Shown here piece after piece: positions 19,625-42,837 of a stretch of 64,000 bases of DNA (positions are counted from its first letter, which is position 1; each line of letters begins with the position of its first letter). The notes beneath the pieces are model-generated. The model searched no databases, was not told where the DNA came from, and saw only the letters and a list, made by a program, of their open reading frames with translations. The translations under genes were made by a program, and so were the position numbers. Source of the stretch: Clostridia bacterium (lineage in GTDB: Bacteria > Bacillota > Clostridia > Christensenellales > CAG-138); contig QKAN01000190.1 in the NCBI GenBank assembly GCA_003246365.1, forward strand, positions 57,015 to 121,014, written 5' to 3'.

Positions 19625-19927
19625 ACCTTTCCGGCAAGAGAAAATTACGAAGATAATGGATAGAGCCGCTATCGCACCAGCAAATCACCGGCGCGAAAGA
19701 CAAACGCTCGCAGTAGGAACACTGCTACAGGAACATTCTACCACAACACCTGAAAACGTGTTATGATGAATGGCAAGGTTTTCGCCGGACGGATGTAAAA
19801 TCATTGTGTCAATTTGCAAGAAAACCGCGTGTTTTTTCCACGAACAGAACCCGAAAAAGCCGAAAAAATAAACGCGGTACGGATTTTTCCGTGTTGCCGA
19901 ACACACAACGCGTTGAATGGAACCCGA

Positions 19928-21004
19928 ATGAAAAAAAGAACCGCTACCCTGATTACAATCGGATTGTTTATCGTTCTTTTTATGGCAGCCCCATCCGCGG
20001 CTGAAGAAGCGCCTTTTTGCGGCGACTTGACCGGGGACGGGATTACCAGCGCTGCGGATGCGGCGGCGATGCTGCGCGGCCTTGCTTTCGGCAGGCTTTC
20101 TGCGGACGACCGGCCGGATCTGGATTTCACCTATAACGGCGAGATCGACGGAATGGATGCGCGCGCGGCGCTGCTCTATGCCTGCGGCGGGATCGAATCT
20201 TTGGTTGACTTTGGCGAGCGCGTTGCAAGCGGACTTTGCGATGAATCGCTGTTTGATCATTTCTCGTATACGGGAATTCGGGACGACGGGGAAGGTAACT
20301 ATAAAAGCGATACCGTCTCGGTTACGATTTCAAGCGGACGCGTGGAAACCAGCAACTATCATCTGGCGGACATTTACGTGCAGGATATCGCCTGTATGCA
20401 AACCGCGTTCAGCGGCGGGGTGTATCGCGGCGGAACGGCGACCGTTCGTAAAATGTTTGATGCGACATCCGGCGCGGTCATCGCCATGAACGGGGATTAT
20501 TACACGCAGCATTATTACGGCCCGATCATTCGAAACGGAATTACCTATTCGGATCGAATCAATCGCAGCTGGGATATTGCGGTTCTGCTGACAAACGGGG
20601 AACTTTTAACTTATAACTATCGCGAACTCACGACCGAAATACTGGAAGGACTGGAAGTCTATCAAAGCTGGGTGTTTGGGCCGGCGCTTCTGGACGCGGA
20701 AGGGCACGCGAAAACAAAATTCCGAAGCGCCGTAACGACGGCCAATCCGCGCTCGGTAATCGGATATTACGAACCGGGACACTATGCGTTTTTAGCGGTG
20801 GATGGACGATCCAGCAAATCCAAAGGATTGACGATGAGCCAGCTTTCGCAGCTTTGCGAAGATTTAGGGTTTGCGGCGGCGTATAATCTCGACGGCGGGC
20901 AGTCCAGCGTGCTGCTTTCGCAGGACGGGCCGATCAATGTTCCTTACCGGGACGGACGACCCATCAGCGATGTGCTCGTTGTTTGCGATCTGCAGGAAGA
21001 ATGA
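19928..21004 (+). CDS. Secreted phosphodiester glycosidase (NAGPA) family protein with N-terminal dockerin-like module
   Basis: Signal peptide; GDLTGDGITSAADAAAMLRGL and NGEIDGMDARAALLYA dockerin-like repeats; SVIGYYEPGHYAFLAVDGR and AYNLDGGQSS motifs. Confidence 0.82.
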   Translation: MKKRTATLITIGLFIVLFMAAPSAAEEAPFCGDLTGDGITSAADAAAMLRGLAFGRLSADDRPDLDFTYNGEIDGMDARAALLYACGGIESLVDFGERVASGLCDESLFDHFSYTGIRDDGEGNYKSDTVSVTISSGRVETSNYHLADIYVQDIACMQTAFSGGVYRGGTATVRKMFDATSGAVIAMNGDYYTQHYYGPIIRNGITYSDRINRSWDIAVLLTNGELLTYNYRELTTEILEGLEVYQSWVFGPALLDAEGHAKTKFRSAVTTANPRSVIGYYEPGHYAFLAVDGRSSKSKGLTMSQLSQLCEDLGFAAAYNLDGGQSSVLLSQDGPINVPYRDGRPISDVLVVCDLQEE

Positions 21005-36061: not shown

Positions 36062-37489
36062 TTGAACGCTGGAACGAAAGCAATCAATGCGCTTCTGCTC
36101 GTCGGCGCAGCCACGGTATTGTTGGCTGCGCCGGCGATTTCGCATGCGGAAGAAAGCGAAACGGCACAGGACGTCACCGCGCAGGCGGTCGTCTCCGCGC
36201 CGGTAGAAGCGCGCGCTGTAAAACGCACACGGGACGGAAACGTCAACACCTACACGACCTTTGCAGCGGAAGAACCGTTTTCCTGTACATGGCTACAGGA
36301 GACCGAGGTGCGCGGCGTATATGTGAAGTGGTATACGCTGCCGGATTCTGTTATACTGGTGCAGATGGACGAAAACGGAGTGGAGCTAAACCGCGAAACC
36401 GTTGACGAGCCGGTCTTTAACGATTATTATCCGCTGTTGGAAACGACGCGCGGACTGCAAATATGGTCGGATAGCGGTATGCAGATTGCGGAACTGACGC
36501 TGTATTCCGCGGGAGAACTGCCGGACGGCATATACGACTGGCAGCCGCCTGTTCAAAAGGCGGATCTTCTCGTGGTTTCGGCGCATTGCGACGACGAACT
36601 GCTCTTTTTCGGCGGTACGATTCCGTATTACGCCGGAGAGCGCGGACTTGCGGTTCAGGTTGCCTATATGGCAAACGGGGAACGCGCGCGTGTTGACGAA
36701 GCGCTCAGCGGCCTCTGGCACTGCGGCGTGCGAAACGCGCCGGTGTTTCTGCCATTGCCGGATATCTACACGGAAACGTTGCGCGACGCGCTGATCCGCT
36801 GGGGAGAAGATACAACTCTCGATACGCTCGTGTCTCTGATCCGCCGGTTTGAGCCGGAGGTAATCGTGACGCACGACCTGAACGGCGAATACGGTCACGG
36901 TGCCCATATGGCAACTGCATACTGCATGCAGGAGGCGCTGCCGCTTGCGGCGGACGCGGCGGCATATCCCGATTCGCTTAAGCAATATGGCGTATGGCAA
37001 ACGCAAAAGCTCTATCTGCATCTTTATGCCGAAAACGCAATCACAATGGATTGGAATATTTCTCTCGATGCGTTTGACGGAAAATCCGCACTTGAGGTTG
37101 CCAACGAAGCGTATCATATGCACGTTTCCCAACTGGAGTACCATAGAAATATCTATAGCGCGGGAGATCTCAGCTCTGCGGAATATGGGTTGGCATATAC
37201 GGCTGTCGGCGCGGATGAGGCAAAGAACGACTTTTTTGAGCACATCGATTTTACGCGGTTGACCACATATGTTGCGCCGGCTGCGACCGATACGCCCGAG
37301 ATAACGGCAACACCGGAACCGACGCCGACGCAGACGCCGGAGCAGACTGCGGCAGCATCGCAGGAAGTGTCGATACAATCGAATTTCAATCCGCTAACGT
37401 ACGCCATTCTGGGAATTCTGGCGCTTGCGGCGGCGGTTCTCATATGCCTGATGATCAGGCGGCGCAAGAAACAAAATAACCGGAGTTAA
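36062..37489 (+). CDS. PIG-L family deacetylase with signal peptide and C-terminal TM anchor
   Basis: DLLVVSAHCDDELLFFGGTIPYYAGERG and THDLNGEYGHGAHMATAYCMQEA; C-terminal TM plus RRRKK. Confidence 0.85.
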   Translation: MNAGTKAINALLLVGAATVLLAAPAISHAEESETAQDVTAQAVVSAPVEARAVKRTRDGNVNTYTTFAAEEPFSCTWLQETEVRGVYVKWYTLPDSVILVQMDENGVELNRETVDEPVFNDYYPLLETTRGLQIWSDSGMQIAELTLYSAGELPDGIYDWQPPVQKADLLVVSAHCDDELLFFGGTIPYYAGERGLAVQVAYMANGERARVDEALSGLWHCGVRNAPVFLPLPDIYTETLRDALIRWGEDTTLDTLVSLIRRFEPEVIVTHDLNGEYGHGAHMATAYCMQEALPLAADAAAYPDSLKQYGVWQTQKLYLHLYAENAITMDWNISLDAFDGKSALEVANEAYHMHVSQLEYHRNIYSAGDLSSAEYGLAYTAVGADEAKNDFFEHIDFTRLTTYVAPAATDTPEITATPEPTPTQTPEQTAAASQEVSIQSNFNPLTYAILGILALAAAVLICLMIRRRKKQNNRS

Positions 37490-37495
37490 CGCACA

Positions 37496-39931
37496 ATGAA
37501 GAGACGCATTGCCCTGCTTGCCTGCGCGCTGGCGGTTCTCATGATCGCCCCCGCTGCGGCGCGCGCGGAAGACACGGAACAAACGACAACCGGCGGCGTT
37601 TCGCTGCTATTCGAACTGCCCGAAGAAAGCGCGGATTACGTGTATCGCCTGACGGACGATACTGTTTCCTCGCGCATTTCGTTTCGAGCGGAGGAGTCTT
37701 TGACCGTGCTGCCGGATGCGCCGGTGCAGGCAATTCGGCTGGACTGGTATGATGTGCCGGAAACGTATATGGTGTCGCAGATCAATGCGGGTGGCGAAGT
37801 CATGTCCGAGGAAGTCATTACGGACGGACAGTATGCGCGCCTCGTACCGATTGATGAAACTTGCAGCAAGATTGTTATCACGATGCAGACCGCGGGAGCG
37901 CTCGGCGGAATTTCCGCCTTTGCCGCAGAGGAACCATTGCCGGAAAACGCGATTTGTTGGCAGTCCACGCCGGAACAGGCGGATCTGCTGGTCGTGACTG
38001 CCGAACCGGGGATGGAATGGTTGCAATTCGGCGCTGTGCTTCCGATTTATGCGAAAGAAAACGGTACAAAAGTTGCCGTGCTGTATGTTTCGGACTATGG
38101 CAAGCGCGCCCGCGCTTATGAGGCGCTGGATGGGCTCAACGATGCGGGCTACACCGTGTACCCGATATTCGGCGGCTTTACCTGCGATAACTACGATTCC
38201 TATAAAATGGCGGTTTCCGGATTTGACAAAAAGACGCTGACGGAATATCTGGAGGGTGAGTTTGCCGCGCTGAACCCGAAGGTGATCGTGACGCATTCCG
38301 CGCTGGATACGTCCGGCGCACATAGCTTCGTTGCGGAGTGTGTGCTCAGCGCTGCGGGTAACAGCGCGAGCGTTGAAAAAGTTTATACGACGGGAGAAAC
38401 AGAGGGCACAACCGCCACCGTGCTGGATATGAACGCGCCGCTGAACGCATACGGCGGAAAGACCGCCGCGGAAGTTGCGACAAATGCCTATGCGATGCAT
38501 GCGTCCAGACGGCTGTTCAACAGCGTGATTGACGCAAGCGGTGCGTTTACGCTCGCGTATACAACGGTCGGCGAAGATACCGCAAACAACGATCTGTTCG
38601 AGCATATCGATACATCTGCGCTGTTAGCCTACGCGCCCGTTACGCCTTCTCCCGCGCCTACGCTGGAGCCAACTGCAACGCCGGAGGCAACTTCGACTGT
38701 TGCAGCTCCTGAAACGACGGAGAACGGTGATTCAGAGGGTTTTTCTCTTTTGTTTTCACCTGCGCTGCTTTGCGTTGCAGCGGGACTTCTTCTTACGGCG
38801 GCGCTCTTTGTGTTTGCATATCGTCCGATCAGCGCGAAACGCGGTAAAGGTGACGCGGTTTGTTTCTGCTTGATTCCGCTTGCGCTGGGCTTGGCAGCCA
38901 GCGCGATTCTCTCAGCGATGCAGGCAGAACCGAAAGCGCCTGCGGAACCGTCCGCAAGCATTATGCCTGCCGAACCCGCGATCGTAGAAGCGGCATCGGA
39001 ACCGTCCCCAGAACCAGCAGCTGAGCCGACACCGACGCTCGATCCCGTTGCGCTGTTTGAGGAAAACTATTACCGCAAAGAGGGTGACCCTGCCGAGGTG
39101 ATCGTTACCGACAGCGAACACGGACACTGGGCATACCGTTCGGATGACCTCGGTATCGACATTGAACGCGTCAGTACGACAAACAGCGAAGGAGACCCGG
39201 TTACGTATTTTGTGGCGGATATCCACATGAAGGACATCAGCCAGTTCCGCCCCGGATTCGGCGCGGAGGCGCACACCGGAAGAGGTGCAATTTATCCCTG
39301 GATCATCGCGCGCCGCGAAAGCGCCGTACTTTGGATTACGGGTGACAACCTGATTAACGATGAGCGCGACGAAAAAGGCATATTAATTCGCGACGGTCGC
39401 TTTTTCTACTCCGCAAATGTGGAAGATACGATTGCGATCTATCCCGACATGAGCATGCGCATCATCAAAAAGCGGTTGTCAACGGCAACGATACTGCTCG
39501 AGGACGGCGTAGAAAACGCCTATTCCTTCGGCCCGACGCTAATTGAAAACGGCGTAATCAACGAAAATGCAAAATATCACCGCGTGCGCCGTGCAAATCC
39601 GCGCTGCGGCATCGGCTACATCGAACCGGGACACTATATTGCAATCGTGGTCGACGGACGGCAAAAGGATTACAGCGTCGGCATGCCGATTTGGGATTTT
39701 GCCGATCTGTTTGCGGAATATGGCTGCGTCAATGCCTATAACCTCGACGGCGGACTTTCCGCGGCGATGATTTTTATGGGCGAACAGCTCAATTCCCATA
39801 ACGGCAACCGCATCGGCAGCGACGACGATATTTCTTATCAGCGCGCGGTGCCTGACGGGTTGATGTTTGGATACAGCGAATTGGTGCCTTCCGTGGACGA
39901 TCCGATTTATAACAACGGAAACAAACAATAA
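37496..39931 (+). CDS. PIG-L-like (catalytic motif lost) - TM - phosphodiester glycosidase (NAGPA) fusion protein
   Basis: N-terminal LLVVTAEPGMEWLQFGAVLPIYAKENG aligns with the PIG-L HCDDE block; two TM helices; C-terminal GIGYIEPGHYIAIVVDGR...AYNLDGGLSAAM. Confidence 0.8.
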   Translation: MKRRIALLACALAVLMIAPAAARAEDTEQTTTGGVSLLFELPEESADYVYRLTDDTVSSRISFRAEESLTVLPDAPVQAIRLDWYDVPETYMVSQINAGGEVMSEEVITDGQYARLVPIDETCSKIVITMQTAGALGGISAFAAEEPLPENAICWQSTPEQADLLVVTAEPGMEWLQFGAVLPIYAKENGTKVAVLYVSDYGKRARAYEALDGLNDAGYTVYPIFGGFTCDNYDSYKMAVSGFDKKTLTEYLEGEFAALNPKVIVTHSALDTSGAHSFVAECVLSAAGNSASVEKVYTTGETEGTTATVLDMNAPLNAYGGKTAAEVATNAYAMHASRRLFNSVIDASGAFTLAYTTVGEDTANNDLFEHIDTSALLAYAPVTPSPAPTLEPTATPEATSTVAAPETTENGDSEGFSLLFSPALLCVAAGLLLTAALFVFAYRPISAKRGKGDAVCFCLIPLALGLAASAILSAMQAEPKAPAEPSASIMPAEPAIVEAASEPSPEPAAEPTPTLDPVALFEENYYRKEGDPAEVIVTDSEHGHWAYRSDDLGIDIERVSTTNSEGDPVTYFVADIHMKDISQFRPGFGAEAHTGRGAIYPWIIARRESAVLWITGDNLINDERDEKGILIRDGRFFYSANVEDTIAIYPDMSMRIIKKRLSTATILLEDGVENAYSFGPTLIENGVINENAKYHRVRRANPRCGIGYIEPGHYIAIVVDGRQKDYSVGMPIWDFADLFAEYGCVNAYNLDGGLSAAMIFMGEQLNSHNGNRIGSDDDISYQRAVPDGLMFGYSELVPSVDDPIYNNGNKQ

Positions 39932-40022: not shown

Positions 40023-40172
40023 CTTATCAAGAGTGGCAGAGGGACCGGCCCTGTGAAGCCCGGCAACCTGTTTGTGAAGAGCAAATAAGGTGCCAATTCC
40101 GGCAGCGAAAGCTGAAAGATGAGAGTTGCACCATCGACTTTGTGAAACCTCATCAGCGGATGAGGTTTTTTT
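40023..40172 (+). promoter_or_regulatory. SAM-I (S-box) riboswitch with terminator expression platform
   Basis: CTTATCAAGAGTGGCAGAGGGACCGGCCCTGTGAAGCCCGGCAACC...GCTGAAAGATGAG; P1 CTTATC/GATGAG; terminator AAACCTCATCAGCGGATGAGGTTTTTTT whose CTCATC can pair with P1 3' strand. Confidence 0.96.
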
Positions 40173-40203
40173 GTATCCAAACTTCAGGAGGAATCATTTT
40201 ACC

Positions 40204-41385
40204 ATGACTACCCGACTTTTCACTTCCGAATCGGTAACGGAAGGACACCCCGATAAAGTATGCGACTGCATCTCGGATGCGGTTCTGGACGCAATCTTCG
40301 CGCAGGATGCGGCGGCCCGCGTCGCCTGCGAATGCGCGGCGAGCACGAACCTTGTTCTCGTCATGGGTGAAATAACGACAACGGCGCAAGTGGATGTGAA
40401 GGACATTGTACGCGACGTCGTCAACTCGATTGGCTACAACAAACCCGAATATGGATTCGATGCAACCTCGCTGAATGTGATCACCGCGTTGAATCACCAG
40501 TCTCCGGATATTGCGCTTGGCGTTGATCACGCGCTGGAGCAAAAGAGCGGGGAACAGGAAGCGCTTTTTTCCACAGGAGCGGGCGATCAGGGAATGATGT
40601 TCGGCTACGCCTGCGATGAGACACCGGAATATATGCCGCTGCCGATCTCGTTGGCGCATGCGTTGACGAGAAAGCTCACCGAAGCGCGCAAAAGCGGGGA
40701 AATCCCATATCTGCGGCCGGATGGTAAAAGTCAGGTGACGGTGGAATACGACGGCAATACACCCGTGCACATCAACACCGTCGTCGTCAGCGCGCAGCAC
40801 GACGAAGTAGACATGGAGCAGTTACGCACGGATATCGCGCAAAAGGTGATTTATCCAATTTTACCCGCCGCGCTATGCGATGCGCGCACGCGCATTCTCG
40901 TCAACCCGACGGGGCGGTTCGTCATTGGCGGGCCGACAGGGGATTCCGGCCTGACAGGGCGCAAGATCATCGTTGACACATACGGCGGATATGCGCGGCA
41001 TGGCGGTGGGGCGTTCAGCGGAAAGGACCCGACAAAGGTAGACCGCAGCGGCGCGTATATCGCGCGCTATGCGGCAAAGCACGTCGTTGCCGCTGGGTTG
41101 GCGAAGCAGTGCGAAATCCAGCTCGCTTACGCAATCGGTGTGGCGCGTCCGGTTTCCGTGCGTGTGGATACATTCGGCACAGGCGTTGTTGACGATGCAA
41201 TCATCGAACGTGCCGTGGAAAAAACGTTCGACTTCCGTCCCGCGGCAATCATCGAAACGCTTGGCTTGCGGCGGCCGATTTACCGCCAAACGGCGGCATA
41301 CGGGCACTTTGGCAGACACGATCTCGACCTGCCTTGGGAACGGTTGGATCGCGTCGACGCGCTGAAAAAAGCAATTCAAGAATAA
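40204..41385 (+). CDS. metK: Methionine adenosyltransferase
   Basis: [67 protein letters not shown]. Confidence 0.98.
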
Positions 41386-41778: not shown

Positions 41779-42837
41779 TTACTGTCCGCTTGTCGCGTCG
41801 ACCGGTTCGCAAATATAGAGAATATCGCTCACGTCGCGCGGGTCATCGTCCTGCGGCTGATTTTCCCATGCGCCGTTATAGGTCATGACCGCGGTGTCGC
41901 CGCCGTCGAGGTTGAAGGCGACCGTGCATCCAAGATCATAAAACACCTGCGCGAGTTCGCTGTATGTCATGCCCCAGGAATATTCCTTCTGCCGCCCGTC
42001 CACGAGGATAAAGCAGTAGTGACCTGGTTCATAGTAGCCAACGGCGGAAAGCGGGTTTGCTTTGGTGTTTGCAAACGTAGCGGGAATCTGCCCGTCTTCG
42101 AGCAGCTCCGGCCCAAAGGTCCAAATTTGATACGGGGTCTTTGCATAGATTGCTTCGAGCGTATCTTTTGAAATCGGTTCGGGATAGGTTTCCATTGTGC
42201 CGTCGTAGTACATGACACAAATGTCTCCGTACACCGGTAAAGTCTTGTCCCATTCCACACCGTCTCTAACCGCAATGCTGTCGTGATAGGTGAAGTTATC
42301 GCCGGAGATGGCGACAATGGAACTGACAATCTCCGACATTTGTAACGTAGACATCACGTTTTTGCGGCTGCCTTCGTTTTGATCCTGATAGTCATATGCT
42401 ACCGCGGTTTGAAAACTAGTGATGTCTTTCACATAGATATCGGCGACATAATAGGTAATCGGTTTGCTCTCGGTGCCGGCAACAACCTGCGACATCTCTA
42501 CGCAAACATTTTCGCTGCGATAAGAGGACTCGGTCTGCTCTACTTCACCAGTGGTGAATTTTTCGGCATAGTTACCGTTGAGCAGACCGGTGTCAACGGC
42601 TTCCGGCGTGGGCGTGGCGTCGTCCGGCAGCGCGGTTTCATCCGTTTGCGCCGCATCCTCCGGCGCGGGCGTTGCCGCCGGCGCAGTGGTCGCGGAAGAA
42701 AGCGTCTTTGGCTCGTAATTCGGTACACGCAAAAAATGCACGTAGGAAAACGCGCCGAGAAAGATGCCAAGCACGATCAGATCGACAACGATCGCCCTGA
42801 TCAACCGCTTGACGGAACGGGAGCGGAGACTATCCAT
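41779..42837 (-). CDS. Membrane-anchored phosphodiester glycosidase (NAGPA) family protein
   Basis: N-terminal TM; AVGYYEPGHYCFILVDGRQKEYSWGM...AFNLDGGDTAVM. Confidence 0.85.
   Translation of the reverse strand: MDSLRSRSVKRLIRAIVVDLIVLGIFLGAFSYVHFLRVPNYEPKTLSSATTAPAATPAPEDAAQTDETALPDDATPTPEAVDTGLLNGNYAEKFTTGEVEQTESSYRSENVCVEMSQVVAGTESKPITYYVADIYVKDITSFQTAVAYDYQDQNEGSRKNVMSTLQMSEIVSSIVAISGDNFTYHDSIAVRDGVEWDKTLPVYGDICVMYYDGTMETYPEPISKDTLEAIYAKTPYQIWTFGPELLEDGQIPATFANTKANPLSAVGYYEPGHYCFILVDGRQKEYSWGMTYSELAQVFYDLGCTVAFNLDGGDTAVMTYNGAWENQPQDDDPRDVSDILYICEPVDATSGQ

Follow-up and report, generated by a model that had tools for sequence, protein, structure and literature searches.

Pseudoenzymes paired with active paralogues are a general concept: selection maintains a dead copy next to its live counterpart. 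A search of open-access papers found no pseudoenzyme or pseudoenzyme pair of the PIG-L/LmbE family. The LmbE enzymes carry the motif HXD1D2 + H in which D1 is the general base and the others are metal ligands; the substrates reviewed in 2014 have GlcNAc-type cores (PMC4101496). Enzymes of the NAGPA family release phosphodiester-linked sugars (PMC12419801). At the locus presented here a PIG-L protein with a complete site is followed by a PIG-L homologue which has lost the site and is fused to a NAGPA domain.

The window analysed, 64,000 nucleotides in length, stems from an uncultured Clostridia genome assembly of 248 contigs; the genomes compared are mostly fragmented assemblies. The upstream gene (36062-37489, + strand) has a TTG start and encodes 475 aa: a signal peptide, a jelly-roll/galactose-binding-like N-domain, the PIG-L domain, a Pro/Thr-rich linker and a C-terminal TM helix. 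PF02585 (PIG-L) matches with 59 bits (cut-off 28.2, E 8.6e-16), and the Pfam stretch covers residues 170-292 (36569-36937). In the alignment the metal/base set is complete, i.e., the ligands H175, D178 and H282, the base D177, and H279. Judged from its sequence, this protein should be a deacetylase for an N-acetylated amino sugar. A gap of 6 bp separates its stop codon from the start of the downstream gene (37496-39931, + strand). A terminator-like hairpin, identified by a consensus scan only, is located 3' of the pair and 5' of metK (40144-40169, + strand); a promoter scan gave 3 matches versus 5.8 expected. The longest form of the metK ORF (40126-41385) begins upstream of this hairpin, and its true start is probably an ATG at about 40204. 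An assembly artefact is unlikely since the pair is on a single 121 kb contig and is present in four other members of the genus (L005-L008).

The downstream gene starts with ATG and encodes 811 aa. As far as the linker, its layout equals that of the upstream protein; a TM hairpin and a NAGPA region follow. A signal peptide (37496-37570; hydrophobic stretch at residues 4-22) precedes a jelly-roll domain (37583-37960; residues ~30-155) with a fold match to F5/8-type lectin/CBM domains and the pseudo-PIG-L domain (37973-38650; residues ~160-385). According to hydropathy, the TM hairpin (38762-38911) consists of residues ~423-441 and ~454-472, connected by the basic loop RPISAKRGKGD. The NAGPA, i.e., phosphodiester glycosidase, region comprises residues ~516-811 (39041-39928; Pfam stretch 610-791). 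Both proteins, by their predicted signal peptides and TM segments, have their domains on the outer side of the membrane.

The Pfam PIG-L profile scores the fusion protein under its cut-off (E 0.19). A BLASTP comparison with the upstream neighbour returned 32% identity over 423 aa (E 7e-48), the N-terminal domain included. A profile built from 20 pseudo-domains matches MshB in the PDB (E 6.7e-12); therefore the fold of the pseudo-domain is that of PIG-L. Searches with the predicted models, which are of modest confidence (pLDDT 58 for the fusion and 63 for the active protein, built from six sequences only), assign the Rossmann part of both to LmbE-family deacetylases (BshB, TT1542 and MshB for the fusion) and the N-domain of both to F5/8-type lectin/CBM domains. 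In the alignment H175, D177, D178, H279 and H282 of the active protein correspond to E170, G172, M173, S273 and H276 of the fusion. Thus, one of three metal ligands (H276) is retained, and the loss extends to the general base and the conserved His. By alignment, the N-part of the fusion is a PIG-L homologue outside the deacetylase membership because the HXD1D2 + H motif is absent.

For the C-terminal part, PF09992 (NAGPA) yields 104.6 bits (cut-off 25, E 8.4e-30) and the domain aligns with solved family members. D617, R632, R703, D751, G752, G753 and R783 are about 100% conserved in 92 fusions. The domain looks intact, and catalysis is predicted. In these structural respects the original prediction, made from the DNA letters, was largely right. 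Both ORFs are at the positions given, the HxDD and GHxxH motifs of the upstream protein are intact and all motifs were quoted correctly, the downstream N-domain does align with PIG-L and has lost its HxDD ligands, and hydropathy confirms the two TM helices. The NAGPA domain stands too; the term glycosidase has to be corrected to phosphodiester glycosidase family, a name which does not fix the substrate.

The proposed history, a tandem duplicate which lost its site and was then fused to NAGPA, did not hold. The fusion, or just its NAGPA domain, has a match in 86 of 103 genomes of the family, often at some ten loci each. Among 127 N-domains the site is intact in 31 solo and 9 fused copies, lost in 78 fused and 5 solo copies, and intermediate in 4. 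The 80 pseudo-domains belonging to the window's family group in a single clade with a support of 100. Since this clade is separate from the active domains, the two genes of the window are, according to the tree, ancient paralogues which split before the family radiated. They are not sisters, which rules out that a copy arose locally in tandem and then decayed. Nor can NAGPA coupling be a consequence of the loss, because nine PIG-L-NAGPA fusions have intact sites and unfused adjacent genes exist outside the order.

Two pseudo fusions of family f4 (L089, L091) nest within an active clade. Constraining all pseudo-domains to a single origin costs 131 units of lnL (AU p 8.2e-6), and a single origin is thereby ruled out. 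On this phylogenetic evidence the site was lost independently at least twice, one of these losses being in family f4, in which a pseudo-NAGPA fusion again adjoins an intact solo PIG-L copy. Quick trees contain long branches; the independence result is taken from the careful tree, in which none was flagged. Three other fusions (L040, L062, L063) read HPGDE, i.e., the base D is replaced by G, with a complete or partial second motif, and are positioned apart from the main pseudo clade in a quick tree. Possibly, they represent a third, partial loss.

Next, the adjacent PIG-L genes were compared. Of 23 such pairs 22 combine an intact with a pseudo copy, one is intact with intact (L088), and pseudo with pseudo does not occur. 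The mixed pairs, partly related by descent and hence not 22 independent events, are found in the window's genus, in genera g10, g20 and g23, and in family f4. This near-exclusive adjacency makes it likely that the active and the pseudo protein function jointly. Pairing is not obligatory: within the DNA examined (flanks mostly 1.5-3 kb), 59 pseudo fusions lack an active PIG-L neighbour. The recurrent combination of a live with a dead copy speaks for a functional surface machine of two parts and against gene decay.

The NAGPA domain is mostly carried by the pseudo partner. In genus g10 (L051, L052, L115) it resides on the active partner and a solo pseudo gene adjoins; at another locus (L049) a standalone NAGPA gene is flanked by an active gene on one side and a pseudo gene on the other. 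The NAGPA domains of these four loci nest among those of the pseudo fusions, therefore NAGPA has changed its partner. At L076 (f15) an intact PIG-L gene and an unfused NAGPA gene line up with a CapA-type gene and with metK, which comes after the pair in the window as well. Outside the order a standalone NAGPA gene adjoins an intact PIG-L gene in 8 of 14 loci examined. Such unfused neighbours, taken together with the partner swaps, indicate that the coupling of PIG-L and NAGPA is probably older than the fusion and older than the loss of the site.

In the window LytR-CpsA-Psr and GT2-GtrA genes are near the pair. Two further NAGPA proteins of the window, membrane-anchored and without PIG-L (41779-42837, - strand; 19814-21004, + strand), belong to lineages other than the fusion NAGPA; the former adjoins a GT2-GtrA glycosyltransferase gene and is close to a LytR-CpsA-Psr gene. 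In the same genome a cluster (L036; G000:C143:28000-47500) harbours two more pseudo-PIG-L/NAGPA fusions together with two CapA-type genes, LRR proteins, a Core-2/I-branching glycosyltransferase, a D-Ala-D-Ala carboxypeptidase, nagA, CBM9 and nagB; it is partly conserved in relatives within the genus (L041, L043, L045). A GlcNAc-containing glycan fits because this paralogue cluster adjoins nagA, nagB, CapA-type and glycosyltransferase genes. Genes for secreted LRR-type proteins adjoin fusions at many loci (23 genes in 21 loci, e.g., L024, L036, L040, L044, L051), possibly encoding an adhesin or a further partner. In a subclade with the motif PTPADVME (L016, L021, L029, L032, L047 and others) the upstream gene resembles a zinc peptidase by eye, and ApbE-like and small membrane protein genes regularly follow downstream.

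We propose, with a modest preference over the alternatives, that the non-catalytic PIG-L module binds glycan and/or scaffolds NAGPA with the active deacetylase on the cell surface. The products of both genes would together form one glycan-processing unit, extracytoplasmic and anchored in the membrane. The upstream protein would remove the acetyl group from an N-acetyl sugar, presumably of the glucosamine type. The pseudo-domain, with its fold and probably its carbohydrate-facing surface kept, would together with the lectin-like N-domain hold the glycan and/or the active paralogue beside NAGPA, which in turn may cut a sugar-1-phosphodiester bond. Such a surface unit could edit or recycle a GlcNAc-containing phosphodiester glycan. 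The model presumes sugar binding, a physical association of both proteins, catalysis by the intact PIG-L and NAGPA domains, and a GlcNAc-containing phosphodiester surface polymer as substrate.

What has been conserved in the pseudo-domains is the fold and not the catalytic site. At positions where 90% or more of 40 intact domains agree, the 80 pseudo-domains of the window's family retain H175 in 6%, D177 in 3%, H279 in 3% and H282 in 10%; D178, retained in 66%, is the exception. Fold positions are kept, i.e., P227 in 100%, P265 in 99%, Y318 in 99%, G222 in 95% and K316 in 90%. Within the genus dN/dS of the window's pseudo-domain is ~0.10-0.17 versus ~0.10-0.14 for NAGPA and is near that of the active domain, values which indicate purifying selection but are approximate as dS is high. 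The loss of the site is conserved in five of five orthologues of the genus. The view of the original prediction, a pseudo-deacetylase kept for a role other than deacetylation, is supported by these orthologues, by the low dN/dS and by the family-wide clade; the roles it suggested, sugar binding or regulation of the active neighbour, are candidates. An ongoing pseudogene decay is ruled out by the intact ORFs and the low dN/dS.

In a first alternative the old, dead PIG-L domain is a passenger, kept as a folded spacer or stalk for NAGPA without ligand and without partner. The former active-site columns are indeed not conserved above average. In most pseudo subclades the motifs of the former active site and the remainder of the domain are about equally conserved (65% vs 61% in the genus), a negative result with respect to a retained sugar pocket; the substrate-binding Arg and Asp of LmbE enzymes are kept in just 44% and 34% of the pseudo-domains. 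Further, the pseudo-domains have diverged widely (25-66% identity to that of the window), and many fusions lack an adjacent active gene. Nevertheless, we regard the passenger role as unlikely. It is at odds with the low dN/dS, with the near-exclusive adjacency of intact and pseudo copies and with a loss which recurred independently beside an intact copy. The solo pseudo-domains of genus g10 (L051, L052, L115) are kept without NAGPA beside active fusions, where a spacer makes no sense.

The pairing data bear on a second alternative, namely that the pseudo partner mainly serves the active deacetylase, in a heterodimer, as a dedicated subunit for regulation or assembly, and that glycan binding is secondary or absent. 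In its favour, BshB is reported to be a hexamer of strand-exchanged dimers and to be inactive when these are disrupted (PMC4101496). The 22 mixed pairs out of 23 and the solo pseudo gene beside an active fusion in one genus are consistent with such a subunit. Against it, unpaired pseudo fusions are numerous, and in genus g23 the partners are transcribed divergently and do not form one operon (L053, L057, L069). On balance this explanation appears rather improbable. Least probable is that the pseudo-domain has gained a different catalytic activity, be it through a new metal site or without any: the hydratase GalB (5cgz) demonstrates that the PIG-L fold can carry a different reaction and the subclades do have replacement motifs of their own (e.g., QPQALFEELGG, PTPADVMExFGP, GVSDELDMLGG), yet the conservation analysis identified no new polar residues that the pseudo clade shares at the former site, and conservation there is mostly only average.

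Taken together, a glycan-binding and/or scaffolding module remains the preferred reading, and the account of duplication, decay and fusion is replaced by an older, repeated partnership of active and pseudo proteins. A far-reaching extension, which we put forward tentatively and with considerable doubt, is a previously undescribed class of surface machines for glycan editing: at least twice, an inactivated LmbE/PIG-L domain would have become the partner that connects an active deacetylase with a phosphodiester glycosidase, and it would later have diversified to some ten paralogues in each genome that differ in glycan specificity.

How does the pair compare with known systems? With the PIG-L/LmbE deacetylases (MshB, BshB, TT1542, diacetylchitobiose deacetylase, LnmX) both proteins share the fold, and the upstream protein shares the full HXD1D2 + H set. 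Unlike these enzymes, the proteins of the window are predicted to be extracytoplasmic and have a lectin-like N-domain; the upstream protein possesses a C-terminal TM helix and the downstream protein is devoid of the metal site. The C-terminal domain of the fusion aligns with NAGPA/DUF2233 proteins (human uncovering enzyme, 3ohg) and keeps the DGR / NLDGG core, yet, unlike in those phosphodiester glycosidases, a pseudo-PIG-L domain and a TM hairpin precede it in one fused protein. In many Clostridia PIG-L deacetylases and NAGPA phosphodiester glycosidases are thus linked, be it fused, separate or adjacent, and this link makes the substrate of bacterial NAGPA testable, the candidate being a GlcNAc-containing phosphodiester surface glycan. 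As in other pairs of a pseudoenzyme and an active paralogue, the dead PIG-L copy is kept under selection beside the live one. The locus therefore offers a natural case, within the LmbE metalloenzyme family, of an enzyme domain repeatedly converted to a non-catalytic partner while its live sister is kept adjacent.
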